Assembly (NCBI RefSeq): GCF_011305995.1
Contig: NZ_CP049910.1
Span: forward strand, 4,278,001-4,342,000
Direction: 5' to 3'
Origin: Diaphorobacter sp. HDW4A
GTDB taxonomy: Bacteria; Pseudomonadota; Gammaproteobacteria; Burkholderiales; Burkholderiaceae_C
DNA: 64,000 nt
Position numbers and translations under genes: made by a program. Positions 31,365-46,862 of this stretch are shown here, piece by piece (positions within the stretch are counted from its first letter, which is position 1; each line of letters begins with the position of its first letter). The notes beneath the pieces were generated by a model that was given only the letters and a program-made list of their open reading frames with translations, searched no databases and was not told the origin of the DNA.

Positions 31365-33677
31365 TCAACGCTGCTGCGGATGGCGCTCGCCCTTGGCAAC
31401 CACCATGCGCCTGCGACGCGCCAACACACCGCCCAGCCCACCCAGCAGCCCGGTGCCCAGCAACCACGCGGGCAAGCCCCACACCGGCACCGGCGTTGCC
31501 TGACCTGTTGGCGGTGTCACCACGGTGCCTGTCTGCAGCGCAATCGTCTGCGTCACCGAAGTGGCTGCGCTCCAGATCGAATCACCTGCCTGTGATGCGG
31601 TGATGCCGCAGTTGCCCGCAGCCAGCATCGTCACCATGGTGCCTGAGATGGTGCAGATGGCAGGTGTGGTCGATGCATAGCTCACCGCCAGACCGCTCGA
31701 CGCCGTGGCGGGCGAGGGCAATGCGAACGTGCCGCTCTGCGTGAAGTTCTGCGGCGGCTGCGCGCCGAAGGTGATGGTCTGCGCCTGCAAAGGCGCGTCC
31801 TTGGACTGCAGGTACCAGTTATTGCCCACCTGAGCGAGCGAGTAGAGGAAGTTACCTGCGCGCGGAGGGCTCTTGAGCACGAAGGCGCTTGCTGCCGAAG
31901 CGCCCGCCACGCTCACCACCTCGATGCCATTGCCCGTGGTGGCCGCACCTGCGCCGTTGATGTTGCGCACATCGATACTGGTCGGGCCGCTGCCCAGTAC
32001 AGAATCGCCCTGCACCACCAGCTTGTCGGTAGGCGCGCTGTCGTTGCCCAGCGCCGTTCCCAGCGTGAGTGTCCCGCCGTTGCTGGTGTAGTTACCTGCA
32101 GTCGTCATCACCACACCAGGCTGACCGGGTGCGGCCTTGAGGAGCGCCTTTCCGCCTACCGCAGACTTGGGCAACGCGGCCGTGTTCGGCAGATTGACGA
32201 TGCCGCCATTCACGAGGCTGGCGACGGTTTGATCGAACCCATTGGCATCCAGCGTTCCGCCGCCCGAGACCGTGTGGGCCGACATCGGGCTGAACGCGCT
32301 CACCACGCCCGCGACCAAGCGACCAGCGCTCACGAAGGTGGGGCCTTCGTAACCCTGTTCCTGCGTGAAGGTGGTGGCACCCGAGTTCATTTGCTTCACG
32401 GTGTGCGCGCCAAGCATGCGGGGCGGGAAACTGATGTCGTCGGTATGATTGAAATTCAGAAAGCCCAGGGTCGTGTTGGAGGCGATGAGATCGGCCGTCA
32501 ACGTGCCGGATTTTCCACCGGAACCCACATTGATCGTGACCGTGTTTTCGGGGCTGTTGGTCACTACGCCGCGCCCCATCAGAACGCGGCCCGCCACCGT
32601 CATCGTCGCACCATCGGCAACGCTCAGAACGGCGTTGGTGGGCAGATCCGTCCCGGAAAGGTTGGGATTGATATCGGCAGCACCGAACATTGCCATGAGC
32701 ACATTGCCGTTCACCGTGACGGATGTTCCGGGGCCCGTGACGTTCATCGTGCCGTCGGCATTGAACGGCATCGTCATGTTGTTGACGCCATTCAGATTGA
32801 ACGAGAAACCGCCAATGTTCAAGCCATTGCCTGCGTACACACCGAACGGAGTCTGAGAAGCCGGAGGCGTGGGCGCAAAAGTCGCGCTGGCGCCGCCGCT
32901 GACCGTCAAGACACCCTTGCCCTGCAGCCCGATGATCGAGTCACCTGCCATCAGCTGCGTGCCCGCGCCATCCACCGTCATCGCACCCGAACCATCAATC
33001 TGCAGAAGGCCGGTACCAGCCTGATTCTGCGTCGATCCAGAAAAGCCACCGACGACAAGAACACTGTCGGATGTGACCTTCGCTCCGGCCTTCACATCCA
33101 GCGTACCCGGTGCAATCCCGCCCACAGACAAAATGCCTGCCGTGAGCGAGCTTCCAGTATCAATGATCGTCGCGCTGCTTCCTGAACTGGCGGGAGTGGA
33201 CTCATTAGTGTTGCCATTGGCGATGGAGAATTGCCGAGCCTTGACTGAAGCACCTTTTTCCACCTGCACGCGGGCATTGCCCAGCCAGCCGACAGACACA
33301 TAAGAAAAAGACGGATCACTACCCACATCCAAGGAGCCTGCAGAGCCCGTCACGGTCAGGGCTCCTTGATCTCCCGCCTTCTGTGCCATCCCCAAGAGCA
33401 GCGCCTTCGCGGCACCCGTGACCATCACCGGGCCACTGCTGGTTTCAACGAACACAGGATCCTGATCACCCAGTTGCTGGGCAGGAGGATGCGCGCCGCC
33501 TGTCACGACTTCCCAATTACCGAGATCACTCCAGTTCTGCGAGACCGTGCCCTTCCAGAAAACATTGTCATAGGCCGCATGTGCCGAAAGCGGCACCGCC
33601 ACGCACAGCGCAACCCCGGACAGGGCTCGCACCAGCGGATGCACGGCAAACTCGAGGGAGGACTTCACTGGACGCAT
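31365..33677 (-). CDS. secreted beta-helix protein with C-terminal sorting signal (IPTL-CTERM-like)
   Basis: 770 aa. A Sec signal (to about A-H-A|A, residue 33-35) is followed by a long Gly/Thr/Val-rich repeat region like autotransporter passengers, including one autotransporter-associated beta-strand motif (G-A-T-T-F-T-Q...G-R-L-V-A-G). A Big/MBG-like segment comes next (I-T-F-G-A-Q-P-P ... T-C/N-C-G-I-T-A-S-Q-A-G). The C-terminus is P-V-P-V-W-G-L-P-A-W, then a ~20-residue hydrophobic helix and R-R-R-R: the tripartite layout of exosortase/archaeosortase-type signals. There is no beta-barrel translocator. The ATG is chosen at 33677 because AAGGA lies 8 bases upstream. Likely surface-exposed and processed; the sorting enzyme is not in this window. 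Confidence 0.78.
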   Translation of the reverse strand: MRPVKSSLEFAVHPLVRALSGVALCVAVPLSAHAAYDNVFWKGTVSQNWSDLGNWEVVTGGAHPPAQQLGDQDPVFVETSSGPVMVTGAAKALLLGMAQKAGDQGALTVTGSAGSLDVGSDPSFSYVSVGWLGNARVQVEKGASVKARQFSIANGNTNESTPASSGSSATIIDTGSSLTAGILSVGGIAPGTLDVKAGAKVTSDSVLVVGGFSGSTQNQAGTGLLQIDGSGAMTVDGAGTQLMAGDSIIGLQGKGVLTVSGGASATFAPTPPASQTPFGVYAGNGLNIGGFSFNLNGVNNMTMPFNADGTMNVTGPGTSVTVNGNVLMAMFGAADINPNLSGTDLPTNAVLSVADGATMTVAGRVLMGRGVVTNSPENTVTINVGSGGKSGTLTADLIASNTTLGFLNFNHTDDISFPPRMLGAHTVKQMNSGATTFTQEQGYEGPTFVSAGRLVAGVVSAFSPMSAHTVSGGGTLDANGFDQTVASLVNGGIVNLPNTAALPKSAVGGKALLKAAPGQPGVVMTTAGNYTSNGGTLTLGTALGNDSAPTDKLVVQGDSVLGSGPTSIDVRNINGAGAATTGNGIEVVSVAGASAASAFVLKSPPRAGNFLYSLAQVGNNWYLQSKDAPLQAQTITFGAQPPQNFTQSGTFALPSPATASSGLAVSYASTTPAICTISGTMVTMLAAGNCGITASQAGDSIWSAATSVTQTIALQTGTVVTPPTGQATPVPVWGLPAWLLGTGLLGGLGGVLARRRRMVVAKGERHPQQR

Positions 33678-33756
33678 GTTCATTCCTTGTAGGCGCGATC
33701 ACGGGGAGGGAGATGCAGAACCTCTGGTAGTGATACTGCATTAATGGGTATTTCCA

Positions 33757-33968: not shown

Positions 33969-34484
33969 CTATGCGGCGGCGCACTTGCGCACGGTATCCA
34001 GTGTCCGTGTCGTGATCTGCTTGCCAAAGGTCTTCTCCAGCAAGGCCATGAACACCGGACCTTTCTCGTTGGGCACATAGGCGGAAAACACCTCCGTGCC
34101 CTCCAGCTTGAGAATGGCGGCCTGCGCCTGCTCCAGAGGCAGCGTGAGTGTCCCTTCGCAGGGCCGGAGCAGAAACGTCACGACCGGCTTGGCATTGGCA
34201 GCCAACGCAAACTCCGCGAACGGCGCACGCGCAACCAGCGACTGCAGAAATGCCGATGGCCGGACAATCGTCATGAACCGCTTTCCGAGATGCTTTTCCA
34301 TGGTTTCTTCCGCCATCCGCTCCAGCACGGGAACGACCTCCGGCCTGGCCGAAAAGGCCACATTGCCGCTGGACAAAAGCGTCTTCACGTCCACAAAACC
34401 CGCAGCCTCGAAGCAGCGCTTGAGTTCCGGCATCTTGCAGTTCATGGGGCTCACACCCCGCAGAAATGCCACATAGCGCTCCAT
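33969..34484 (-). CDS. DUF1697 domain-containing protein
   Basis: 171 aa; full-length DUF1697, recognised by the opening R-Y-V-A-F-L-R-G-V-S-P-M-N and L-S-S-G-N-V-A-F at about 37-44. No catalytic function is established for the family. The mostly Gram-positive and soil-bacterial distribution I associate with it suggests an accessory gene. It starts 68 bp after the VWA gene, on the same strand, and may be a loosely attached last gene of that operon or independent. Confidence 0.85.
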   Translation of the reverse strand: MERYVAFLRGVSPMNCKMPELKRCFEAAGFVDVKTLLSSGNVAFSARPEVVPVLERMAEETMEKHLGKRFMTIVRPSAFLQSLVARAPFAEFALAANAKPVVTFLLRPCEGTLTLPLEQAQAAILKLEGTEVFSAYVPNEKGPVFMALLEKTFGKQITTRTLDTVRKCAAA

Positions 34485-34552: not shown

Positions 34553-35782
34553 TCACCGACTCGTCTTCATCCCCTGCGCCGCCGCCCAGGCGCTGATGTC
34601 ATCACGCCGGATGGCAGCCGCCATGAGCTGCGGGAATGCGTCCGGCGTGCAGGCAAATGAAGGCACGCCGAGCGCGGCGAGCTTGCTCGCGAGTTGGGCG
34701 TCGTAGGCGGGGGCGCCTTCGTCGCTCAACGCGAGCAGCGTGATGAACTGCACGCCCGACTCCACCAACTCGTGCGCGCGGCGCAGCAGACCGGCCTCGA
34801 CGCCGCCCTCGTACAGGTCGGAGATCAGCACCAGAATTGTGTTGCGCGGCTCGCGGATGAGGCTCTGGCAGTAGCCGACGGCGCCGTTGATGTCGGTGCC
34901 GCCGCCAAGCTGCACACCGAACAGCACGTCGACCGGATCGTCGAGCTTCTCGGTCATGTCGACCACGGCGGTGTCGAACACCACCATCTTGGTGTCGACG
35001 GCAGGCAGGCTCGCCATCACCGCGCCGAAGATGCTCGAGTAGACGACAGAGTTCGCCATCGAGCCGCTCTGGTCGATGCACAGCACCACCTCGCGCTGCG
35101 GCTTGCGGGCCTTGCGTCCGTAGCCGATCAGCGTTTCGGGCACGATGGTGCGGTACTCGGGCTGCCAGTGGCGCAAATTGGCGCGGATGGTGCGGTGCCA
35201 GTCGATCTCGGCATGCTTGGGCCGGCGGTTGCGCTGGCTGCGGTCGAGCGCGCCGCTGATCGCGCCGCGCATCGGCTCTTCAAGCTTGCGCATGAGTTCA
35301 TCCACCACCTTCTGCACCACGGCGCGCGCGGTGGCCTTGGTGCTCTGCGGAATCACGCTGGAAAGCGAGATCAGATCAGCCACCAGATGCACGTCGGCCT
35401 GTACGCTTTCGAGCATCTCGGGCTGCAGCATGAGCTGGCGCAGGTTGAGCCGCTCCATCGCGTCGCGCTGCATGACCTGCACGACCGAGCTTGGGAAATA
35501 GCGGCGGATGTCGCCCAGCCAGCGCGAGACGTTGGGCGACGAGTTGCCGAGGCCGCCGCGGCGCGGACCATCGTCGCGCTTTTGCTGTTCGTAGAGCGCT
35601 GCCAATGCCTGATCGATCTCGCCGATGCCGCCCGACAGCGCGCCGCAGCTCGCGTCCGCAGGCTCGCCGAGCACCAGTCGCCAGCGCTGCAGGCGGTCGG
35701 TGGGCGGCAGGTCTTCAAGCGCGGTGGTGGGCGTTGCCGCAGCGGCGGCGTTCTGGTTCGGATTGTTCTTGGTACGTGCCAT
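34553..35782 (-). CDS. VWA domain-containing protein (CoxE/MoxR-partner type)
   Basis: 409 aa. An N-terminal helical region (about 1-225) with an Ala/Thr/Pro-rich start is followed by a C-terminal von Willebrand A domain with a complete metal-ion-dependent adhesion site: D237-x-S-x-S (D-Q-S-G-S), T296 in G-G-G-T-D-I, and D322 in I-S-D-L-Y-E-G-G. VWA proteins of this type are the usual partners of MoxR AAA+ ATPases, one of which is encoded 7 kb upstream in the same operon. Starts 14 bp after DUF5682. An open frame continues upstream to 36049, antisense-like within DUF5682, and is rejected. Confidence 0.88.
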   Translation of the reverse strand: MARTKNNPNQNAAAAATPTTALEDLPPTDRLQRWRLVLGEPADASCGALSGGIGEIDQALAALYEQQKRDDGPRRGGLGNSSPNVSRWLGDIRRYFPSSVVQVMQRDAMERLNLRQLMLQPEMLESVQADVHLVADLISLSSVIPQSTKATARAVVQKVVDELMRKLEEPMRGAISGALDRSQRNRRPKHAEIDWHRTIRANLRHWQPEYRTIVPETLIGYGRKARKPQREVVLCIDQSGSMANSVVYSSIFGAVMASLPAVDTKMVVFDTAVVDMTEKLDDPVDVLFGVQLGGGTDINGAVGYCQSLIREPRNTILVLISDLYEGGVEAGLLRRAHELVESGVQFITLLALSDEGAPAYDAQLASKLAALGVPSFACTPDAFPQLMAAAIRRDDISAWAAAQGMKTSR

Positions 35783-35796
35783 GTTTGTGTCTTCCC

Positions 35797-38244
35797 TCAG
35801 GCCTTCTCGTGACTTGGAGCCAGGCCCCAGAGCGTGCGCAGCGCGGGCAGCACCAGTGCGGCGCGTTCCACATCGAGATCGTCCGCCATTGCGGCCACGC
35901 CGGATTGCGCCGTCTGCGTGCCCTGCTTGGGCCCACGCACCGCGCGCGAGCCGAGCTGCTGGCGTTCCGCGCGGCTGAATTCCGCAAAGCTGCGGCGCAC
36001 CAGCGGAAGCACCTGGATGAACTGCGCCTCGCCCAATTGTGCAAGCCACGCATCGACCGCGCCCCAGATCGCATCGTCATGCAGCAGCACCAGCGCCTGG
36101 CCGTTGAGAAAGCCATCTAGCCACGCGGCCGCATCGACCGGCGCGACGCCGAGCGACAGGTTGTGCGCGAACTGCAGGCCGATCTTTTCCTCGTCCCAAA
36201 GCTTCGCGTCGAGCAGCAGCCGCGTCGCCATGCCGCGCAGCAGCGCCGCGCAGGTGTCTGCCTCGGCCATCACCACCAGCGCGCGGTGCCAGGCGTTGGT
36301 GGTCTCCTCGGCATCGCGCAGGCGGATCGCCTCATCGGCCAGCAGCGCGATGGTCTTCACGCCGCGCGCGGCATCCTCGTCGAGCGACAGGCAGGCGTTC
36401 GGCAGACCGATGGCCGCGCGCAGCACGAGCTGATCGATCACGCCCGCGAGCAGCTTGCTGTCTGTCTGGCGCACGCTGCCGTAGCGGTAGACATTGGCGA
36501 GCGCGGGCAAGGCGCGCAGCAGTTGCTGCACATCGCCGGTGATCGCCGCGCGCGCCGAAACCTCGTTCATCAGCCGCTCGACCAACTGCGGCAGTTGCGC
36601 GAGCAGCGCATCGTCGATGGCTTCGGCGATCTCGGGCAGCGCGGTTTGCGGCGTGAGCGTCTGCAGCACGCGCTTGGCGGTGGCGGTCTCCACGGTCGAT
36701 CCGAAACGGCTCGCCTCGATGAGCTTGACCACCAGTTCGGGCTGCCATTGCAGATCCCAGCTCTCGCGGAAGGTGCCGCGATTGCGCTGCTGGTCCGACG
36801 CACGGCGCCCCCAGTGGATGCCCAGCAGCCGCAAGCGGTGCAGCAGGTGGCTGCGCGCCAGATCGGTGTCCTTGCGCAGGTCGAGCGCGACGATCTTCGA
36901 GCCCGCCTCGGGCTTGAGACGCAGCGTCTTCTGCTGCTGCTCCAGATCGCGCTGCAGCGGCACCAGCGGCACATCGGCAGGCACGCTCCCGAGCACATCG
37001 CCCACCACCAGCGCATCGTGGATCAGCTTGAGCGGCGCGGATTCGCCCATGCAGACCACCGTGCGCACGGCCTCGTGCAGCTCGGGCAGGCCGGGCTCGG
37101 TCTGGCCGCGCAGCGCCGCAAGACCTTCGGCCAGGCGCGTGGCCTCGATGATGTGCGCGCTCGAACAATCGAGGTCATGGCCACGCAGCAACTGCGCCAC
37201 GCGCGAGAGCCAGCCCGCTGCGCGGCTCGGCTGGATGAAGCGCGGCGATGGTTCGTGAGCGGCGGTGTTGTTGTCCGCTGCCGCATCGGTGCGCCACAGG
37301 TGCGCATACCAGCCCGGCGCATCCACGCCCGCGCCATAGCCACTGCCGCTCGCGAGGTTGCGATGCGTCCACGGCGCCCAGGTCGCCTGCACTTTGATTT
37401 TCGGGAGGCCCTTGAGCGTCGCGGCATCGGCCTTGGCCGTCACCTTCGTCGTCGATATCGCCGTCAGCGCGGGCACGTGCCACGCACCGCAGATCACTGC
37501 AATGCGCTGATGCCCGGCCTTCTGCGCCTCGCGCATGGTCTGGCGCATCGTGGCCTCGCGGCGCTCCTCGCGCAGCGCATAGGCCTCGCCGCGCAAGCTG
37601 TTGGGCAGCTCTTCGCGCAGTGCGGTCATCGCCTCGGCCACCGCATCGAACACCGCGCTGTCGCCCCCGCGCTCCTCGACCAGCCGATTCCACCAGGTCT
37701 CGCCATCGGCATAACCTGCGGCCTCGGCGAGCGCATCGAGCGGATCGCGTGCAAAGCGCTGGTCGGGGTGCGGCTGTTCGATCTCGATCTCGGCATCGAT
37801 CACAACGGTCTCGTCATCCGCCGTTTCAGCGTCCTCATCGTCGCTCGATTCAGGCTCGCTCTCCGCCTGCTTCGCCAGTTCCTCGGCCTTGAGCTTGCGC
37901 GCCTCTTCGGCCTCCTTGTCGAGCGCCATTTCCGTGGCCTGCGGCAGGTCCATGAAGCGCACCGGCACGCCCTGCTTCACGGCCCATTGCAGGGCCACCC
38001 ATTCGGGCGAAAACTCGGCCAACGGAAAGAACGACGCACGGCTCGGCTCGTCCTGACCATAGACCAGCATGGCAACCGGCGGGCGCAGATCCTCGCTTGC
38101 GACGGCGGGCAACAGCGCCTCGCATTCGGCCGGGCCTTCGATCAGCACGGCGTCGGGCTGCAGCGCTTCAAGCGCCTTGAGCAGGCTGCGTGCGCTGCCC
38201 GGCCCGTGGTGGCGAACGCCAAAGAAGTGCAATGCTGAATCCAT
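35797..38244 (-). CDS. DUF5682 family protein
   Basis: 815-aa cytosolic protein. The N-terminus G-V-R-H-H-G-P-G-S-A-R-S and I-E-G-P-A-E-C place it in the DUF5682 family, whose fold is thought to resemble the TraB/ChaN-EreA hydrolase group; conserved His appear again in I-C-G-A-W-H-V-P-A-L. An acidic linker (about 128-150, rich in E and D) interrupts the N-terminal domain. The C-terminal half is helical. Function unknown, but the family repeatedly occurs with MoxR, VWA, SWIM and DUF5691 genes, as here. It lies 49 bp after the TPR gene. Confidence 0.82.
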   Translation of the reverse strand: MDSALHFFGVRHHGPGSARSLLKALEALQPDAVLIEGPAECEALLPAVASEDLRPPVAMLVYGQDEPSRASFFPLAEFSPEWVALQWAVKQGVPVRFMDLPQATEMALDKEAEEARKLKAEELAKQAESEPESSDDEDAETADDETVVIDAEIEIEQPHPDQRFARDPLDALAEAAGYADGETWWNRLVEERGGDSAVFDAVAEAMTALREELPNSLRGEAYALREERREATMRQTMREAQKAGHQRIAVICGAWHVPALTAISTTKVTAKADAATLKGLPKIKVQATWAPWTHRNLASGSGYGAGVDAPGWYAHLWRTDAAADNNTAAHEPSPRFIQPSRAAGWLSRVAQLLRGHDLDCSSAHIIEATRLAEGLAALRGQTEPGLPELHEAVRTVVCMGESAPLKLIHDALVVGDVLGSVPADVPLVPLQRDLEQQQKTLRLKPEAGSKIVALDLRKDTDLARSHLLHRLRLLGIHWGRRASDQQRNRGTFRESWDLQWQPELVVKLIEASRFGSTVETATAKRVLQTLTPQTALPEIAEAIDDALLAQLPQLVERLMNEVSARAAITGDVQQLLRALPALANVYRYGSVRQTDSKLLAGVIDQLVLRAAIGLPNACLSLDEDAARGVKTIALLADEAIRLRDAEETTNAWHRALVVMAEADTCAALLRGMATRLLLDAKLWDEEKIGLQFAHNLSLGVAPVDAAAWLDGFLNGQALVLLHDDAIWGAVDAWLAQLGEAQFIQVLPLVRRSFAEFSRAERQQLGSRAVRGPKQGTQTAQSGVAAMADDLDVERAALVLPALRTLWGLAPSHEKA

Positions 38245-38293
38245 GTTTCCCGTTCTTCTTCAATACATCAAATGGCGGATTGAACGCGACGAC

Positions 38294-40615
38294 TCAGAGT
38301 CCGTAACGCTCTTCCATCGCCTCATGCCGCTCGGTCGGTTCGCCCGCGTCGCGTGCGAGTTCGGTCCAGCACAGCACCATGCCCTTGGTGATCGCCGCGA
38401 GTTTCGCGGAGATCACGCGCGGCGGCACATCGGCCGGTGCCGTCACCGCGAGATAGATGCCTGGCAGGCCGGCATCTTCATCATCCTCGTCATCTTCATC
38501 CGACTCGTCTTGCGTTTCGGAATCCACCACGCGGTAGCCATCGCTGCTGTACTGCCAAGTGCTCCATCCCTCGGCTTCGAGCGCATCGCGGATCACGCGG
38601 ATCTGCTCCTCGCCCGGATGCACGCCATCCACCATGTAGCTCGGGCCGTGGCCGCCCTTTTCCAGCACATGCAGCGGTTCGCCATAAATGCGGACGTAGT
38701 GCTCCTGCTCGTCCTCGTTTTCCGGCGGTTGCTCGGCGAGGCTGGGCACAAACACCACCCAGTCATTCATGCCCTGATCCATGCCGCGCTGTGCGGGCTG
38801 CACGATGCGCGCCGTGGCGGGGCCTGTGCGGCGCGCCATCACGTCGCGCGTGCGGCCACTCTCGTCATGGCGCAGATAGATCAGGCCCCAGTCCTCTTCG
38901 AGCGGAGCATCCTCGGAATCGACGGCGTCGAGTTCCATCTCCAGCGCCATGGCCTGCTTGCGTACCTCGGCCCATTGCTGCGCGGCGGTCGCGGCGATCA
39001 GCAGGTCCCAGCGCTGACGTGCTTCGGGCTGCTCTTCGCTGTCCAGCACAACGCGGCGCTGCTCGACGGCCGTGTCGAAATCCTTGAGTTCCATCGCCGC
39101 ATCGGCCCACATCCCCCGCGTGGCAACGGCGGCGGGATCGTGTGCGAGCACCTGCTCAATGAGTGGCCCAATCTGCGCAAAACGCGATTCGCGAAACGCC
39201 ACGCGTGCGCGGTACCAGGCTGCCTGCGCGGGTAGCGTGGCCTCGATGCGCACGGCCTGTTCCTCTACCGCCGCATGATCCTCGGCCTTGAAGCACACCC
39301 CGAACCAGCGGTTCTGCAAGGCAATCGAATCCGGCGCGGCATCCACCATGGCGCGCAGACGGGCGCGCGCCAGATCGTGGCAGCCGAAGTTGGAGAGCGC
39401 TGTGGCCAGCGTCATCGCCACGTCTTCGTCCTGCGGCATCGCGCGGTGCGCCTGCTCCAGCCACTGGATCACGGCCTCGTTGTCGAGCCCGCTTGCCGCA
39501 TCAGAGCCCAGCCATTCGAGCAGCTCTTCGGGCGGGCATGGCGCGGCAATGTCGCTCGCCTGCGCCACTGCATCACTCGCCTTGTCGAGCTTGGCGGCGG
39601 CGCCAAGATCCAGACGCAGCATCGGCAGATGTTCGCGCACACGGGCCACCGCGTTTTCCGCGAGCCAAGGCACGCGGCGCGCGAGCGACAGATCGACCTG
39701 CGCGAGCGCCATGTCAACCAGCACGCGGTGATTGCCCACGGTGTGCAGGTGCTCGATGGTGCTCCAGATCGAGTGACCGAGTGAGGGCGTGTTGAAGTCC
39801 GGCTGCACGCGCGCAATCGCGAGCGCGGCGCGGCACCACATCAGATAGTCCTCCAGCTCGATGTCGTCGAAGCCGGGCAGCAGCTCGATGGCGGCAGCCG
39901 CATCGCCCGCCATCGCCGTTGCGCGGGTGCGCAGGAACAAACGCGTTGCCTGCTCGCGGCGGTCGTCGTCATCCGAGTCCTCCTCGGATTCTTCGAGCAG
40001 CTTGAGCGCGGTCTGCGGCTCGCCGAGCGCCAACCACTGATCGACCTCGGTGCTCACGAACAGCGTGGTCACTTCCTCGCCCGCACGGCGCTGCTCGTCA
40101 CGCTGCTGCTTCAGATAGAGCACGGCCTCGCGCGGCTGGCCCTGATCGTGCAGCGCGTTCGCGCGCTCAATGCTGATGCAGCCGAAGCATGACCAGCTCG
40201 GGTCGATGCGCGCCAGCGTCTCATCGCAGGCCGCGAGACGTTCCTCGGACCAGCCGGGGCCGTCAACATTCGCATAGGTCGCTACCAGATCCTGCGTGAT
40301 GCACACGCTCTGCGGGCAGGCGTGGGTGCGTTCCTGGTGCGCGCTTTCATACGATGCGACCACCTCGCCGAGCTGCGTCTCGCCATGGTGGCGCGCGATG
40401 CGCGAGGCGTTGAGCCAGTGCTTGAAATAGATGTCGAGCCACGGAATTTCAAAGCTGCGCGCGGCCGCCAGTGCCTCGGGCACCAGCGCCTCGACGAGCG
40501 CATGGTTGCCGCGATACTGCTGATACGGCACGTCGTGGATCAGATAGGCAAGGCGCTGCTGGCCCTGCTCCTCCAGCTGTTCGGCGAGATCGTTGACCCA
40601 GGCAAAACTGTCCAT
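38294..40615 (-). CDS. large tetratricopeptide-repeat protein
   Basis: 773 aa, no signal peptide. Much of the chain is helical repeats; the clearest TPR-like units lie between about residues 420 and 570 (A-L-S-N-F-G-C-H-D-L-A-R-A-R-L, then W-Y-R-A-R-V-A-F). Two strongly acidic runs occur (E-E-S-E-E-D-S-D-D-D-D at about 225; D-E-S-D-E-D-D-E-D-D-E-D at about 730). A C-terminal domain (about 600-773) has no recognised family. AGGAG is upstream of the chosen ATG. It sits directly after an HSP90-like gene, and TPR proteins are classic HSP90 partners. Confidence 0.75.
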   Translation of the reverse strand: MDSFAWVNDLAEQLEEQGQQRLAYLIHDVPYQQYRGNHALVEALVPEALAAARSFEIPWLDIYFKHWLNASRIARHHGETQLGEVVASYESAHQERTHACPQSVCITQDLVATYANVDGPGWSEERLAACDETLARIDPSWSCFGCISIERANALHDQGQPREAVLYLKQQRDEQRRAGEEVTTLFVSTEVDQWLALGEPQTALKLLEESEEDSDDDDRREQATRLFLRTRATAMAGDAAAAIELLPGFDDIELEDYLMWCRAALAIARVQPDFNTPSLGHSIWSTIEHLHTVGNHRVLVDMALAQVDLSLARRVPWLAENAVARVREHLPMLRLDLGAAAKLDKASDAVAQASDIAAPCPPEELLEWLGSDAASGLDNEAVIQWLEQAHRAMPQDEDVAMTLATALSNFGCHDLARARLRAMVDAAPDSIALQNRWFGVCFKAEDHAAVEEQAVRIEATLPAQAAWYRARVAFRESRFAQIGPLIEQVLAHDPAAVATRGMWADAAMELKDFDTAVEQRRVVLDSEEQPEARQRWDLLIAATAAQQWAEVRKQAMALEMELDAVDSEDAPLEEDWGLIYLRHDESGRTRDVMARRTGPATARIVQPAQRGMDQGMNDWVVFVPSLAEQPPENEDEQEHYVRIYGEPLHVLEKGGHGPSYMVDGVHPGEEQIRVIRDALEAEGWSTWQYSSDGYRVVDSETQDESDEDDEDDEDAGLPGIYLAVTAPADVPPRVISAKLAAITKGMVLCWTELARDAGEPTERHEAMEERYGL

Positions 40616-40668
40616 GTGGCTTGCTCCTGAAGGTGGCTTCTGGTTGGTTTGTCGCTGGTTTGCGAGGT

Positions 40669-42546
40669 TCAGTTCTGCGCGGTCGGCGCGCACAGCGCCG
40701 CCACCGCACCGTTGAAATCATTGAGCAGATCGACGAGCGGCGGCTGGCCTTCAAGTTCTTCGCCGCCGGGTGCCATGATGACCTTGAAGCTGCGCAGCAA
40801 CGCCACCGCATGCGCGGGCAAGACACGGCCCTCGCGATGGCTTTGCAGCAGTGCCTGAATGGCGGGGTTGTCGAGGTTGATGTAGAGCCGTGCGGCCACG
40901 CTCGCGTCGATGCGCTTGGTGAACGCGCGCGCCAGACTCAGCGCCGCGCCCGCCATGCGCTTGCTCGCGTCATCGGCCTCCAGCCGCGCCTTGAGCTGGG
41001 CCTCGCGGTCAGGCACGGCGATCAGCGGCAGTTCGGGCGAGACGAAGCGTGCGGGCACCACCAGCTCGCCCCAAGCCAGCTGCGTGCGCAGCCAGGCGAT
41101 CTCGCTCTTGGGCAGATCCGCCGCGCGGAACATGCGCGCATTGCCGGTGGCCGTGCCGATCTCCACCAGCAGCACGCCACGGTCGCGCACGTATTCGCGC
41201 AGAAAACCCGCCACCGCGTAGCGATCACCACGTGCGACCGGCACCTGCAGCGCGCGGAACAGCACGTCTTCGAAACCGCCGCTCTGCCCCAGGCTCAGGT
41301 GAATGCGCCCATCGCGGATCAGGCTGCGCACCGGCAGATCGCCCTGACTCGTGGAGATGCGCACGGCGTCCTGCAGCATCGCGAACAGCTCGTCCTCGCA
41401 GAGTGCCGCGCCGAGCAACGCCTCGTTGTGGCGCGTGAGCAGTCGGCTCCACGCGGGCGCCTGTTCCTGCGCAAGGCTCGCAAGCCCCTTGATCAACGCG
41501 CTCTTGAGATGCGCGCGCACCGCCGTGTAGGCGTCGTCGCGCTGCAAATCCTCGCGGCTTGCGGTGGGCGTGAGCGCGTTCGATTCGATCACGCCGCCGA
41601 TGAAGCCCGCCCACACGGGAATCAGGTCGCGCGCCTCGTCGTCGAGCAGCATGCCGCGCACGTAGACGCTCAGATGGCGGTTGTCGCTGGTGCCGTAGGT
41701 CGCACCGTCCTGCACCCACAGCAGGCCGCGCGCATCGCTGTCGCCCTCGGGCTCGATGGCGATCACGCAGATCGGCTCGAAGTGGCGCTCCATGCGCGTC
41801 GCAAACGCCATGCGCTGGCGCTGCAGCACGGCGGGGTGAACGACCACGCCGTCGTGCGTGGCGCGCCACGGCGGCGGCTCGGCGTTCACGCATTCATCGT
41901 CAAACCACAACGGCTCGCGCAGCAGCGCGCAGTAGCGCCCCAGCACCTTCTTAAGCACGCCGGCCGAGCACAGATGGTTGAAGTCGTTGCGCATCGCCAG
42001 ATGGATCTCGGTGCCAACCGGCCGCGCGTCAATCGGTTGCACGGCATAGCGCCGCCCGTCCGTCGAGAGATACCGCCAGCCTTCGCCGGTCGACTGGTAC
42101 GAGGTGGTGTTCACCAGCACCTGCTCGGCCACGACGAAGGCCGAGAGAAAGCCAAGGCCGAACAGCCCGATCAGCTCCTCGCTGCCTTCCTTGCCTGTCG
42201 CGCGCAACTGGCGCGTGTAGCCGTTGCCCAGCGTCGCGAGAAAGCGGTGCAGTTCCTGCTCGGTCAGGCCCGATCCGTTGTCGCGGATGATGAGGGTCTG
42301 CGCGGCATCGTCGGCGATCACATCGATGCGGCCCGGCTCGGTGAAGCCCGGGTCCTCGAGCCTGCGGCGCGAGATCGAATCGTGCGCGTTCTGGATCAGC
42401 TCGCGGATCGCGACGACCGGCGTCGAGTACAGGTGCTTGGCGAGCACGTCGAACAGGCCGTCCAGATGCACCTGCGTAGTCTGCAAGGCCGGGGCCGATG
42501 GTGGTGTCGCGTCGTCGCCGGGATCGCGGCTGCTGTGGTCGTTCAT
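40669..42546 (-). CDS. HSP90-family ATPase (HtpG-like paralogue)
   Basis: 625 aa, the size of HtpG. The GHKL ATP site is complete: E-L-I-Q-N-A-H-D-S (catalytic Glu and Mg-binding Asn), D-N-G-S-G-L-T, and L-F-G-L-G-F-L-S-A-F for the lid. Middle-domain (about 230-480) and C-terminal regions are present but diverge strongly from canonical HtpG, and no MEEVD-like tail exists (the end is A-P-T-A-Q-N). Genomes usually carry the standard htpG elsewhere. This copy, embedded in a MoxR/VWA operon, is probably specialised for that system (inference). Confidence 0.88.
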   Translation of the reverse strand: MNDHSSRDPGDDATPPSAPALQTTQVHLDGLFDVLAKHLYSTPVVAIRELIQNAHDSISRRRLEDPGFTEPGRIDVIADDAAQTLIIRDNGSGLTEQELHRFLATLGNGYTRQLRATGKEGSEELIGLFGLGFLSAFVVAEQVLVNTTSYQSTGEGWRYLSTDGRRYAVQPIDARPVGTEIHLAMRNDFNHLCSAGVLKKVLGRYCALLREPLWFDDECVNAEPPPWRATHDGVVVHPAVLQRQRMAFATRMERHFEPICVIAIEPEGDSDARGLLWVQDGATYGTSDNRHLSVYVRGMLLDDEARDLIPVWAGFIGGVIESNALTPTASREDLQRDDAYTAVRAHLKSALIKGLASLAQEQAPAWSRLLTRHNEALLGAALCEDELFAMLQDAVRISTSQGDLPVRSLIRDGRIHLSLGQSGGFEDVLFRALQVPVARGDRYAVAGFLREYVRDRGVLLVEIGTATGNARMFRAADLPKSEIAWLRTQLAWGELVVPARFVSPELPLIAVPDREAQLKARLEADDASKRMAGAALSLARAFTKRIDASVAARLYINLDNPAIQALLQSHREGRVLPAHAVALLRSFKVIMAPGGEELEGQPPLVDLLNDFNGAVAALCAPTAQN

Positions 42547-42560
42547 GCGGCTCTCACGTG

Positions 42561-43643
42561 TCAGATTTGCTCTCGGCAGGCGCGATAGAGGTCTTTCCAG
42601 TCCGTGCGCTCTTTCACCACGGTTTCAAGGTATTCCTTCCACACCACCGTGTCCTGCACCGGGTCCTTGATGACCGCGCCGAGCAGACTCGATGCCACGT
42701 CCGCCGCGCGCAGCACGCCGTCGCCGAAGTGCCCGGCCAGCGCCATGCCGCTGTTGATCACCGAGATCGCCTCGGCCGTGGACAGCGTGGACGTGGGCGA
42801 CTTGATGCGCACGCTCTTGCCGTCTTCGGTCTGGCCACTGCGCAGTTCGCGGAAGATCTGCACCACGCGCTTGATTTCCTCGAGCGCCGGTGGCTCGGCC
42901 GGCAGCGCCAGCGCACGGCCCATTTCGCCGACGCGCTTCATCACGATCTGCACCTCATCGGCCTCGCTCGACGGCACCGGCAGCACCACCGTGTTGAAGC
43001 GACGCTTGAGCGCGCTGGACAGCTCGTTCACGCCCTTGTCGCGGTTGTTGGCCGTGGCGATCACCGAGAAGCCCTGCACCGCCTGCACTTCGCTTTCAAG
43101 TTCGGGCACGGGCAGCGTCTTTTCGGAGAGCACGGTGATCAGCGTGTCCTGCACATCGGCGGGAATGCGGGTGAGTTCTTCGATACGCGCGATCTTGCCG
43201 CGCTTCATCGCGTTGACCATCGGGCTCGGAATCAGCGCCTTTTCCGAAGGGCCGTGCGCAAGCAACTGGGCGTAGTTCCAGCCATAACGCAGTTGCTCTT
43301 CGCTCGTGCCCGCCGTGCCCTGCACGAGCAGCGTGGAATCACCGCTCACGGCGGCGGCCAGATGCTCCGACACCCACGATTTCGCGGTACCCGGCACGCC
43401 GTAGAGCAGAAGCGCGCGGTCGGTCGCGAGCGTGGTCACCGCGATCTCCATGAGGCGCGCATTGCCGATGTACTTGGGCGAAATCTCCACCCCGTTCTTG
43501 AGCGTGCAGCCCATCAGGTACTGCAGCACCGCCCAGGGCGAGAGCTTCCAGTTGGGTGGACGCGCACGGTCATCGACCTGCGACAGCGCGTCCAGCTCGT
43601 GCGCGAATTGTTGCTCTGCATGTTGGCGAAGAACCTGGCTCAT
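42561..43643 (-). CDS. MoxR-family AAA+ ATPase
   Basis: 360 aa. Walker A G-V-P-G-T-A-K-S (82-89); a Walker B segment I-A-R-I-E-E-L (151-157) in which the usual DE is I-E-E; sensor 1 in V-I-A-T-A-N-N-R; and an arginine finger candidate in L-K-R-R-F. The C-terminal lid follows. MoxR ATPases remodel proteins together with VWA partners. The operon places it 37 bp after DUF5691 and 14 bp before the HSP90-like gene. An N-terminal extension to 43706 is rejected; this ATG gives a normal N-terminus. Confidence 0.92.
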   Translation of the reverse strand: MSQVLRQHAEQQFAHELDALSQVDDRARPPNWKLSPWAVLQYLMGCTLKNGVEISPKYIGNARLMEIAVTTLATDRALLLYGVPGTAKSWVSEHLAAAVSGDSTLLVQGTAGTSEEQLRYGWNYAQLLAHGPSEKALIPSPMVNAMKRGKIARIEELTRIPADVQDTLITVLSEKTLPVPELESEVQAVQGFSVIATANNRDKGVNELSSALKRRFNTVVLPVPSSEADEVQIVMKRVGEMGRALALPAEPPALEEIKRVVQIFRELRSGQTEDGKSVRIKSPTSTLSTAEAISVINSGMALAGHFGDGVLRAADVASSLLGAVIKDPVQDTVVWKEYLETVVKERTDWKDLYRACREQI

Positions 43644-43680
43644 GGTGTGAAGCTCTCTGTTGGCAAGAAGGAGGAAAAAA

Positions 43681-45288
43681 TCAGGATGACGCGGCCACGC
43701 TGGCACGCGCCAGCGTCTGGCGGATGTCCGCGATGCGGCGCACGTGCTGCCATTGCTCGTCGATGTTGTTCTGGTTGGCGTCCGCGCTGCTGACCTTGTC
43801 GATCACGGCCAGCAGCTCGGGCAGAGCCGCCGGGTCGAGCCACAGCGCCGCGCTCGCGAGCGCCTGCGACATGTCGTGGCGCACGCTCCAATTCGCACTC
43901 GCACTGTCCGCCGCCAGCGCCTGCTGCGACAGCGCAGCGACGATTTGCGCCGACAATTGCGGCGAGAGCTGCTCGCCGGGCTCCATCAGCTCGCCAATGC
44001 GGATCAGCACGATCACCAGCCTCGGCGCGGCTTTGACGCGGGTGCTCCAGTAGGCCTCGCGCTCGGACAACGGCATGGCGGTCAGCAGGGAATTGAGGCT
44101 CTGAAGCGCGAGGCGATTTTCCTGCATCGATGTCAAAAGCCCCAGCCACTCGCGGCTCGGCGCGCGCGCGGCAGCCTCTAGCAGGCCATCCCACAGCGAG
44201 CGCTTCCATTCGGTCTTGCCCGCCCACACGAACAGCGCCTCGGGCGTCATACCGAGATGCGCGAGCCACCACGCGGGCGGCGTCATGCGCACGAGCTGGT
44301 AGAGCCACCAGGCGCGCTCTCCGCCCTTGAAAAATCCATTCACCTTGATGGCGATGCCATCGCGCGGCCAGTCGGCGTTTTCCTTTTCGGGCGGCTCGAT
44401 GGTCCAGTTGCCACCATCTCCGTCGCGCTTGAGCAGCAGCGTGATCCACGCGATCACGCGCTGCGAATGTGCGCTTTCGGGCAACGTCGACAATAACTCT
44501 GCCGCGAGCTGTTTGACGTCGCCGCTGCGGTCGGTGAGCAGGCGCTCGAGCAACGGCTCGTCGTCCATGGAAAGCTTGGCGCTCAGCACCTCAAGCATCG
44601 CCAGACGCTCCTTGGCGTTGAGCTCTTTGATCGCGGCCTCGAAGCGCTCGCGTGCGGCGCGCGGATCGCTTTCGCGCTCGCTGCGCAGCACGGCCACACG
44701 CTGCTCGAAGCTGCCTTCGCTCCACAGCTGTTCGGCATCGGCCTGCTGATCGGTGCCCGCTGCATATTTCCATGCGGGATTGAGCTGCGCCAGCCACAGG
44801 CCGCACGCGCCCAGCACGCCGAGCAGATCGGCACGCAGCGCCGAGTTGCGAGCCCCTGCGTCAAGCGCCGTCGGCAGCGTCTGCTGCGGCAGCCGCATGC
44901 CAGCGCGCGCGAGCACATGCCAGCTCTGGCGGATCAGGCTTTCGGGCCCGTCTCGCAGCGCGGCGTTGAGCGCGCGGATCACGGCCTCGTCGCTCGGCAT
45001 GGTCTGTACATCGTCAGGCGCGGCGGACAGCGCCAGCGGCGGGTCGATGGCCGCAGGCACATGGCCCGCGCGCTGCCACAGAGCCGCAGCGCCCGCCGCT
45101 CGCAACACCTTGATCGAGCCCGCATGTGCGTCGTCCGCCAGCGGCAGCGTGGCATTCGCATCGCGCATCAACGCCTGCACCGCACTCGGCCATTGCGCAT
45201 CATCGAGCGCGTCCATGCGCTGGGTGCCAACCAGCGCCTGCTGCATCAGCCCCTGCCACACTGGAGAATTCATGAGACTGCCACTCAT
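43681..45288 (-). CDS. DUF5691 domain-containing protein
   Basis: 535 aa, all-helical, HEAT-like character. The family is recognised from V-G-T-Q-R near the N-terminus, L-L-L-K-R-D-G-D-G-G-N-W-T-I-E-P-P-E and W-W-L-Y-Q-L-V-R in the C-terminal half, together with the gene order. Function unknown. It overlaps the SWIM gene stop by ATGA; a second ATG 15 bases in (M-N-S-P-V-W) is possible. Not predicted to be enzymatic; it could be a scaffold for the MoxR complex (inference). Confidence 0.82.
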   Translation of the reverse strand: MSGSLMNSPVWQGLMQQALVGTQRMDALDDAQWPSAVQALMRDANATLPLADDAHAGSIKVLRAAGAAALWQRAGHVPAAIDPPLALSAAPDDVQTMPSDEAVIRALNAALRDGPESLIRQSWHVLARAGMRLPQQTLPTALDAGARNSALRADLLGVLGACGLWLAQLNPAWKYAAGTDQQADAEQLWSEGSFEQRVAVLRSERESDPRAARERFEAAIKELNAKERLAMLEVLSAKLSMDDEPLLERLLTDRSGDVKQLAAELLSTLPESAHSQRVIAWITLLLKRDGDGGNWTIEPPEKENADWPRDGIAIKVNGFFKGGERAWWLYQLVRMTPPAWWLAHLGMTPEALFVWAGKTEWKRSLWDGLLEAAARAPSREWLGLLTSMQENRLALQSLNSLLTAMPLSEREAYWSTRVKAAPRLVIVLIRIGELMEPGEQLSPQLSAQIVAALSQQALAADSASANWSVRHDMSQALASAALWLDPAALPELLAVIDKVSSADANQNNIDEQWQHVRRIADIRQTLARASVAASS

Positions 45289-46676
45289 TGCATCTCTCCC
45301 GACAGCGCCCAGATGGGCTGCACCTTATCGGTATCCGCCACATCCCACGCGCTGAGCAAACGCCAGCGCTCGTCGCTCCACTCGCCCATCGCCAGCACCG
45401 GATGACCACCGCTGGCCGCAAGCAGGCTCCACGCCTGCTCGTCGGGCAAAGCGAGCTGCAACACGCGCTGCGCATTGTCGTCGCCCTCCGTGATCACCGC
45501 CTGCCAGCCCGCGCCCTCGGCGCGATGCAGACGCACGCCCTGCAGCATCAACGGCTGCAGCGGTTGGAACGGATTGCCCGCCAGCCGCTCGGCAAGGTCT
45601 CGCCAACTCCGCTGCGCCTGGCTGTGCGCGAGCAGCGACGGCGAGGCGTCACTCTGCGGATCGAGCAGGCTGCTCGCATCCGCAGCGATGGCACGCATCG
45701 GCGCACCACCCGGATAGAAATGCAGATTCGCCGCGTAACTGCGCCCCACCAGCCATGCACGCTCGTAGCCACGGCCACCGTGCGCGTAGTCCTGCAGCAA
45801 GGCGATGCGCCGCGTCTGCTCGCCAAACAGCCACATGCGCCGCTCGACGAGTCGGCCCTGGCCCTCGATCTGGTAGCCGCCCAGCACCCGCCAGGTATCG
45901 GCCACGGCGGGCGAGGTGGCCAACATTTCGGCCTTGTCCTGATTGAAGCCGAGCGCGCCCATCACATCGCCCCGCATCGCGGGCGGCAGTTGCTCGCGGC
46001 GCGCGGCGGCGTCGAGCAGCAATTGCCATTGACCCAGATGCGCGAGCAGCACGGCCGGCCAATCGTCGCGCGCGCTCGCCACTTCGTGCAGCTGCGTGAC
46101 GCGTGCGGCCATGCCGGGCGCCTGCGCATCCACAAGTCGCGCGGCCATGTTCTGCCATGCCTGATGGGTGCTTGAATCATCGAGCTGCTGCGAGGCCAGG
46201 CCTTGGCGCAGCATGTCCTGCATCCACAGCGAGAGTTCGGCGAGGCCGCCTTCCACGCGGCTCCAGCGCTTGGACTCACGCTTGGCCGCAGCTTCGGGAT
46301 CGGGCGGTGCAGCGGCCACGGCGGCGGCCTTGGCTTCCTTCTTGTCAGCGCGGTCGCGGCGCGAGTCGATCCATTCGCTGACCCATGGCGGGCGCGCGTC
46401 TGCTACGGCCACCTGCCCCGCCGTGCGCAACAGGAGCAGCGCGAGACCATGCTTGCAGGGAAACTTGCGGCTCGGGCAACTGCATTTAAACGACGGGCCG
46501 CTCAGATCGACCTGCGTCTGATAGGGCTTGCTGCCGCTGCCTTGGCATTCACCCCAGACTGCAGCATCATCGCTGCCGAGGGTCGGCCATTTACCGGGAG
46601 ATTTCAGGCCCTGAGCAGCCTTGGTTGAGGAAGCGTCCGGGGAGAGCCCCAACACTTCTGCTTCGCTGGTTAGCAC
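45285..46676 (-). CDS. SWIM zinc-finger protein
   Basis: 463 aa. The SWIM motif is exact: C65-x-C67-x6-C74-x-H76 (K-C-S-C-P-S-R-K-F-P-C-K-H-G). The motif W-G-E-C-Q-G-S-G-S-K-P-Y-Q precedes it. The rest is helical with long Ala/Gln-rich segments and no nuclease or ATPase motif. The start is placed at GTG (M-L-T-S-E-A-E-V-L-G) because GGAGAAGG lies ~8 bases upstream and the family begins this way; the open frame to 46811 is rejected. SWIM domains bind DNA or protein, and this is the first gene of the seven-gene operon. Confidence 0.86.
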   Translation of the reverse strand: MLTSEAEVLGLSPDASSTKAAQGLKSPGKWPTLGSDDAAVWGECQGSGSKPYQTQVDLSGPSFKCSCPSRKFPCKHGLALLLLRTAGQVAVADARPPWVSEWIDSRRDRADKKEAKAAAVAAAPPDPEAAAKRESKRWSRVEGGLAELSLWMQDMLRQGLASQQLDDSSTHQAWQNMAARLVDAQAPGMAARVTQLHEVASARDDWPAVLLAHLGQWQLLLDAAARREQLPPAMRGDVMGALGFNQDKAEMLATSPAVADTWRVLGGYQIEGQGRLVERRMWLFGEQTRRIALLQDYAHGGRGYERAWLVGRSYAANLHFYPGGAPMRAIAADASSLLDPQSDASPSLLAHSQAQRSWRDLAERLAGNPFQPLQPLMLQGVRLHRAEGAGWQAVITEGDDNAQRVLQLALPDEQAWSLLAASGGHPVLAMGEWSDERWRLLSAWDVADTDKVQPIWALSGEMQ

Positions 46677-46862
46677 GTGCAGCCTTCTCCATCCCGCCAG
46701 TAATTGCGAGCAAATATTAGTCTTGCCGGATTTATACCAAAGTCCCGATGTCACTCTTGAGAAGCCTGCAGGCACTTTGTGAACATGTGCATCCATGGGG
46801 ACCGACTGCATTCAGGGAAGACGCCAGTAGCGCGCCAAGTGAGGCCGCAGACAATCACCGCC

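Follow-up and report, generated by a model that had tools for sequence, protein, structure and literature searches.

Can two different kinds of protein-remodelling machine be joined within one bacterial gene cluster? This question is raised by an operon in a 64 kb stretch of the genome of Diaphorobacter sp. HDW4A (6.76 Mb in total), hereafter called the window. The operon encodes, in this order, a SWIM zinc-finger protein, a DUF5691 protein, a MoxR AAA+ ATPase, an HSP90-like ATPase, a TPR protein, a DUF5682 protein and a VWA protein (coordinates are collected in the table below). A first-pass annotation, made from the sequence alone, had described these seven genes as one machine with two ATPases. 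We find that MoxR, DUF5682 and VWA form a near-constant trio, that SWIM and DUF5691 go with one of two branches of this trio, and that HSP90-TPR is an independent pair which, in the family Comamonadaceae, occupies the slot between MoxR and DUF5682. On balance, we lean towards reading the operon as the DUF5691-type form of a YehL MoxR-VWA system with an added Hsp90/TPR chaperone cassette. The cassette occupies a single slot of this known system and was probably gained more than once.

All seven open reading frames (ORFs) are open on the minus strand, with junctions of -4, 37, 14, 53, 49 and 14 bp, the DUF5691 ORF and the SWIM stop overlapping by 4 bp. The ORF coordinates thus confirm the arrangement first described. 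Pfam agrees with the family named for each gene, and the metal-ion-dependent adhesion site (MIDAS) of the VWA protein, which had been called intact, can be read in the sequence as DQSGS, GGT and D. The identical seven-gene order is present in Diaphorobacter caeni, a third Diaphorobacter, Delftia tsuruhatensis and four Variovorax. Because the same genes recur in the same order in these relatives, the arrangement is not due to chance.

The core of the operon can be followed through DUF5682. A search of 200 genomes of the order gave eight with a match, including the window genome; nine other loci from these genomes all have MoxR and VWA, seven of them have SWIM and DUF5691, and HSP90 or TPR was found in none of the nine. 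Among 66 fetched DUF5682 loci, MoxR lies alongside in 65 loci and VWA in 63; cut contigs account for three of the four misses but not for the fourth (L234). The claimed MoxR-VWA pairing within a conserved multi-gene unit is supported. When the loci are split by MoxR identity to the window at a threshold of 55%, which we set ourselves (one locus, L188, was dropped as its MoxR lies off the contig), they fall into two branches. Type A, with MoxR 61-100% identical to that of the window, comprises 44 loci, near-duplicates included, of which 40 carry SWIM, 42 DUF5691 and 41 VWA. Type B, at 38-47%, comprises 21 loci. YehI-like (DUF4132) genes lie beside 15 of the 21 type B loci and YehQ-like genes beside 12 (five of them weak, 40-43 bits); the 44 type A loci have neither. 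The MIDAS motif DxSxS is retained in 41/41 type A loci with a VWA match, including the window, and the P-loop TAKS in 41 of the 44 type A and 18 of the 21 type B loci. Both branches can be present in one genome: that of Delftia tsuruhatensis (G888) has a seven-gene type A locus (L237) and a yeh-like type B locus (L247).

By identity and gene order, the core in the window can be assigned to the YehL-type MoxR-VWA system. Its MoxR is 39% identical to E. coli YehL, its DUF5682 protein 25% to YehM and its VWA protein 36% to YehP, and the genes for these proteins lie in one cluster. In E. coli K-12, yehL-yehM-yehP-yehQ encode MoxR, DUF5682 and VWA in the same order as in the window, plus a SWIM protein; the full order in MG1655 is yehF, yehH (pseudogene), yehI, yehK, yehL, yehM, yehP, yehQ. 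In the window, DUF5682 also lies between MoxR and VWA, with the cassette directly after MoxR. The accessory genes differ: the E. coli type has yehF (WGR) and yehI (DUF4132) and places SWIM last, whereas the window type places SWIM first, has DUF5691 and contains the inserted HSP90-TPR. A YehI (DUF4132) gene next to the core, the mark of the E. coli branch, is absent from the window operon, and YehQ gives no BLAST match to the window SWIM protein. The YehL-type system is common to the Pseudomonadota and Actinomycetota loci that we saw and, to our knowledge, still has no assigned function in E. coli. RavA-ViaA, CbbQ-CbbO and NorQ-NorD likewise encode a MoxR ATPase and a VWA partner together, and we know of no DUF5682, SWIM, DUF5691 or HSP90 partner for any of them. 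Among solved structures, NorQ is one of the weak matches of the window MoxR (E 3e-5), and no meaningful sequence relative of DUF5682 or of the VWA protein was found in the PDB. YehL is listed as one of seven MoxR subfamilies in PMC3893208, and our literature searches returned no paper using the names DUF5682 or DUF5691.

The slot between MoxR and DUF5682 is normally short, with a gap of 9-206 bp (405 bp in L244) in 35 of the 44 type A loci. Five of the 44 have HSP90-TPR there: the window, two other Diaphorobacter, Delftia tsuruhatensis and Variovorax sp. OK212. Four Variovorax loci, the genus being recognised by a TPR gene identical to that of OK212, were also fetched by way of the TPR gene; one was OK212 again and the other three show the same order, so that all eight readable Comamonadaceae carriers, from three genera, agree. 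Measured between tblastn match ends, the slot is 4279-4320 bp long in five carriers versus 71, 64, 87 and 26 bp in non-carriers. It is empty in D. aerolatus, two Delftia/Comamonas genomes and one Variovorax, and since core-only operons persist in such sister species, HSP90-TPR appears to be optional. These sister operons, differing by HSP90-TPR in one slot, are a natural experiment on what an Hsp90 with its own TPR partner contributes in bacteria.

Other genes are also found in this position (L016:7551-8282, L017:11118-11897 and L240). Two Burkholderiales relatives have a DUF4241 gene there by Pfam, the slot gap of a third locus equals that of one of these two, and in one fragmented genome the slot is filled by an ORF that looks methyltransferase-like by eye. 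Accessory genes in general may insert at this point.

Where else does the HSP90-TPR pair occur? A TPR alignment search was run against GTDB species genomes, and the best 80 of 181 relatives were examined. An HSP90-like gene lies immediately upstream on the same strand in all 80 of these TPR loci, and 77 have no core gene in the available flanking DNA, which for several is a short contig. Of the other three, those of Variovorax sp. OK212 and D. caeni are part of the seven-gene order and one is on an uninformative 3.4 kb contig. The pair is found in, among others, Xanthomonas, Stenotrophomonas, Pseudomonas, Escherichia, Streptomyces/Kitasatospora and a Chloroflexi metagenome-assembled genome (MAG). 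The standalone pair has the same two families, order and adjacency as that of the window but is unlinked to MoxR, DUF5682 and VWA; the window TPR protein is 30-38% identical to the listed free ones. No conserved third partner of the free pair was identified among the 40 largest clusters of flanking ORFs, of which five span at least three groups: HSP90, TPR, an antisense shadow over both, and two broad families whose positions are scattered or distant. At the genome level, DUF5682 is above cut-off in 12 of 37 genomes with HSP90-TPR, drawn from 38 of the 80 loci; two of the 12 are operon carriers and the other ten are four actinobacteria, three Escherichia, Lysobacter, Duganella and a Zoogloeaceae MAG. 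In a class sample, the TPR profile reached E <= 0.001 in 285 of 369 genomes, nearly all by generic repeats, and only the five at E < 1e-80 were counted; three of these have DUF5682, namely the window genome and two of one genus, in which DUF5682 is on another contig. In neither sample is this co-occurrence counted as linkage. The idea of one machine with two ATPases may apply to Comamonadaceae alone, with HSP90-TPR as an optional, patchy insert; elsewhere the pair is independent. The expected co-occurrence of the seven genes extends across three genera and was seen in no other family.

Individual free pairs occur in various settings. In E. coli FDAARGOS_144 (L253, 8015-12158), the pair lies between fdhD and yiiG and is annotated as "ATP-binding protein" and "hypothetical protein", and 245 of 5,426 complete E. 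coli genomes carry a close copy of the pair of E. coli E69. On the 29 kb Xanthomonas vasicola plasmid pXVH29 (L254, 7102-11325), it lies beside STAS/anti-sigma and response-regulator genes, possibly a stress-signalling neighbourhood. Lysobacter sp. yr284 has a free pair and a five-gene type A operon on a 395,622-base contig (L057, L174), about 37 kb apart if the numbering agrees. The P. aeruginosa pair adjoins liv genes in the record that we opened; from its neighbourhood and locus numbers, we take it to be, very probably, PA1068-PA1069. In PMC4053335, PA1069 appears to be in an operon with an Hsp90 gene and had earlier been found induced by calcium and/or biofilm growth, and PMC4957987 reports PA1069 about four-fold down on heat shock, with htpG up. 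Because PA1069 falls while htpG rises, the free pair is unlikely to be a plain heat-shock unit, insofar as the presumed homology holds. A heat-stress role, one form of the stress chaperone first suggested, is thus contradicted, for the free pair, by the only data set that we found.

How did the cassette reach the slot? Among 399 genomes of the family, the TPR gene is found in five, four times in the slot and once on a 3.4 kb contig of a fragmented genome (G202). The six Diaphorobacter genomes comprise three with the seven-gene operon, one with a five-gene operon beside the same upstream gene, one without DUF5682 and TPR, and G202. In a core tree of 15 rows (MoxR, DUF5682 and VWA), carriers are interleaved with non-carriers, and carrier monophyly is rejected (p-AU 1.2e-50). 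A single clade (100/100) unites the resident HSP90 and TPR proteins with metagenomic relatives of unknown context and sets them apart from the proteins of genera with free pairs. A hitchhiking pair, recombined into a tolerated intergenic point with no functional tie to the core, would agree with the scatter of carriers over the tree, with the acceptance of unrelated genes by the slot and with the 77 of 80 loci that lack a core gene. We nevertheless regard it as improbable, because the eight readable carriers agree in slot, order and orientation, the resident copies form a clade of their own, and no free copy was seen in the 399 family genomes, where the only copy outside the slot is that on the uninformative 3.4 kb contig.

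A different history is an ancestral seven-gene Comamonadaceae operon from which HSP90-TPR was lost many times independently, which would be compatible with the chaperone-cassette reading. At least three changes are required by the starred branches of the core tree, a minimum that a single gain followed by two losses would still satisfy, and the divergence of HSP90 between genera (82-87% identity) resembles that of MoxR (87-91%). In addition, a Variovorax carrier and non-carrier show no switch of the DUF5682 leader (MGSPLHY versus MASPLHY). On the other hand, carriers amount to 1 of 53 genomes in the Delftia/Comamonas genus and 4 of 100 in Variovorax, counting all genomes, core-bearing or otherwise. 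Furthermore, identity between the Delftia carrier and a non-carrier lies at 93-99% across the last ten full 100-column bins of the MoxR side and at 87-97% across the first five 60-column bins past the DUF5682 leader, yet the leader of the carrier is MDSALHFF, as in Diaphorobacter carriers, instead of MATSANPLHFF. Such a leader switch is as expected of a recombined cassette. The MDSALHFF leader is found in three of 120 listed DUF5682 relatives (one unparsed): that of D. caeni, one perhaps from the same contig as a TPR relative, and one whose context is unknown. These observations suggest to us that the cassette was transferred between operons of one family, and old gain with frequent loss, the alternative, seems rather unlikely. 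Phage and plasmid origins were also considered and rejected: IMG/VR holds no TPR relative (nine pattern stretches, none confirmed), DUF5682 is present in 1 of 50,697 phage records, where TPR was not searched, and 72,556 plasmid records contain DUF5682 in 36 and TPR in three.

The proteins of the cassette give clues to its function. Aligned with TRAP1 over residues 25-369, the HSP90-like protein keeps the GHKL Glu, Asn and Asp, the DxGxG and GxxGxxSAF-type motifs and the arginine position of the SRE motif, to which we assign the ATP site and the middle-domain arginine. The protein thus has the GHKL ATP site and the middle-domain arginine of the Hsp90 family. As to a C-terminal dimerisation domain, the best TRAP1 match stops at residue 369, and NF010683 aligns over 22-571 with E 3.5e-81, below its cut-off. 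The same genome has a second, HtpG-like gene (G000:C1:4374894-4375973), whose product is 29% identical to the HSP90-like protein; by this comparison, the two are distinct proteins. Four cysteines of the TPR protein, C100, C105, C143 and C146 (CPQxxC ... CxxC), are shared by all 54 sequences aligned, which suggests a bound structural zinc, and the protein has a conserved end. Motifs and a structural model raise the possibility that the DUF5682 protein combines a TraB/Tiki-type enzyme with a helical solenoid. The predicted layout is a TraB/Tiki-like alpha/beta domain from residue 1 to about 300 and a helical solenoid at about 500-770; R11-H12-H13, E36, R229 and G253xxH256 are invariant in 31 aligned sequences. 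We take the TraB/Tiki/ChaN group to be defined by two GX2H-type motifs plus a conserved Glu and Arg. The first-motif Gly is replaced by Pro in eight type B rows, and Pfam ChaN matched one of four N-terminal domains scanned, weakly (E 0.17).

How might these parts work together? In other MoxR-VWA pairs, MoxR acts as motor and VWA as adaptor, and we carry this division of labour over to the present locus. The MoxR ring, with the VWA protein as a MIDAS adaptor, would remodel or activate DUF5682, the predicted TraB/Tiki-like enzyme with its solenoid arm; the near constancy of the trio points to DUF5682 as the client or effector. SWIM and DUF5691 would be adaptor or regulatory, fast-changing accessory parts, and Hsp90, steered by its dedicated TPR partner, would hold or fold large or fast-changing components. 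Given the fidelity of the slot, HSP90-TPR may serve the assembly as an optional chaperone. Part of the evidence on DUF5682 weighs against its TraB/Tiki assignment. A more specific version, in which HSP90-TPR is a horizontally moving cassette delivered to one precise slot and links an Hsp90/co-chaperone cycle with a MoxR-VWA motor for maturing or controlling the TraB-like hydrolase DUF5682, is tentative and somewhat doubtful; literature searches gave no precedent for a two-motor remodelling machine of Hsp90 and MoxR-VWA. The locus gives a hint that protein-remodelling machines of two kinds can be combined, and it offers a possible enzyme fold for DUF5682 and two branches with different accessory genes.

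The same parts could also serve in conflict, anti-phage or self-directed. MoxR-VWA would then keep a hydrolase-like DUF5682 in an inactive state as long as no invader is detected, with SWIM and DUF5691 as fast-evolving sensors and the Hsp90 pair stabilising the sensor, as Hsp90 stabilises eukaryotic immune receptors. Such a role would suit the patchy distribution of DUF5682, which is above cut-off in 12 of 369 class genomes and 44 of 399 family genomes, and the faster divergence between genera of SWIM and DUF5691 (37-57% identity; SWIM 48-57%) than of MoxR, VWA and HSP90 (79-91%; MoxR 87-91%). In addition, the MoxR-vWA ternary conflict systems share the MoxR and vWA core with the window, and their FtsH and beta-propeller classes are reported to have the same P-loop variant, GXXXTAKS, in PMC7159879. 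The third component there is a VMAP, iSTAND, FtsH or beta-propeller protein instead of DUF5682, and SWIM, HSP90 and YehL are not named in the main text of that paper. Pfam models for effectors, VMAP, iSTAND, FtsH and beta-propellers gave no match above cut-off in the seven proteins; the window MoxR matched VMAP-M0 (E 0.0083) and bpMoxR (E 1.4e-4) below cut-off. PADLOC, run on nine proteins, returned matches limited to shared ATPase folds: TmtA (E 2.1e-8), REase_II and CARF on HSP90, and IetA (E 0.001) on MoxR. Pfam showed no defence-named family in eight neighbouring proteins, so that these scans gave no backing to the defence or dormancy role raised at the outset. The identical upstream neighbour across four Diaphorobacter, the fdhD/yiiG (E. 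coli) and liv (P. aeruginosa) surroundings of opened free-pair records and the single DUF5682 match among the phage records argue in the same direction. We consider a conflict role unlikely, and remodelling of DUF5682 is favoured over defence.

Table. Features of the Diaphorobacter sp. HDW4A operon (positions in the window; E values are Pfam matches).
Feature	Coordinates	Strand	Details
SWIM zinc-finger protein	45285..46676	-	operon gene 1; GTG start, 463 aa; PF04434 E 1.2e-5
DUF5691 protein	43681..45288	-	535 aa; PF18944 E 1.3e-106
MoxR AAA+ ATPase, YehL type	42561..43643	-	360 aa; AAA_5 E 2.3e-37; P-loop GVPGTAKS
HSP90-like ATPase, first half of inserted cassette	40669..42546	-	625 aa; PF00183 (HSP90) E 2.7e-10; PF13589 (HATPase_c_3) E 2.4e-8
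TPR protein, second half of cassette	38294..40615	-	773 aa; TPR_19 E 8.7e-6
DUF5682 protein	35797..38244	-	815 aa; PF18934 E 2.3e-254
VWA_CoxE protein, final gene	34553..35782	-	409 aa; PF05762 E 1.4e-50; MIDAS intact
HSP90-TPR insert, MoxR stop to DUF5682 start	38245..42560	-	slot lengths, junction sequences
Extended -10-like element TTGGTATAAA, upstream of SWIM start	46731..46740	-	invariant in 4/4 aligned Diaphorobacter upstream regions

The extended -10-like element upstream of the operon was not listed by a sigma-70 consensus scan (one site found versus 1.0 expected), and promoters and terminators inside the operon showed no excess over shuffles. Downstream of the operon, the window encodes an autotransporter-like protein on the minus strand (31365-33683; Pfam AC_1 and T5SS/PEP-CTERM repeats), which is separated from the operon by a DUF1697 gene (33969-34484).

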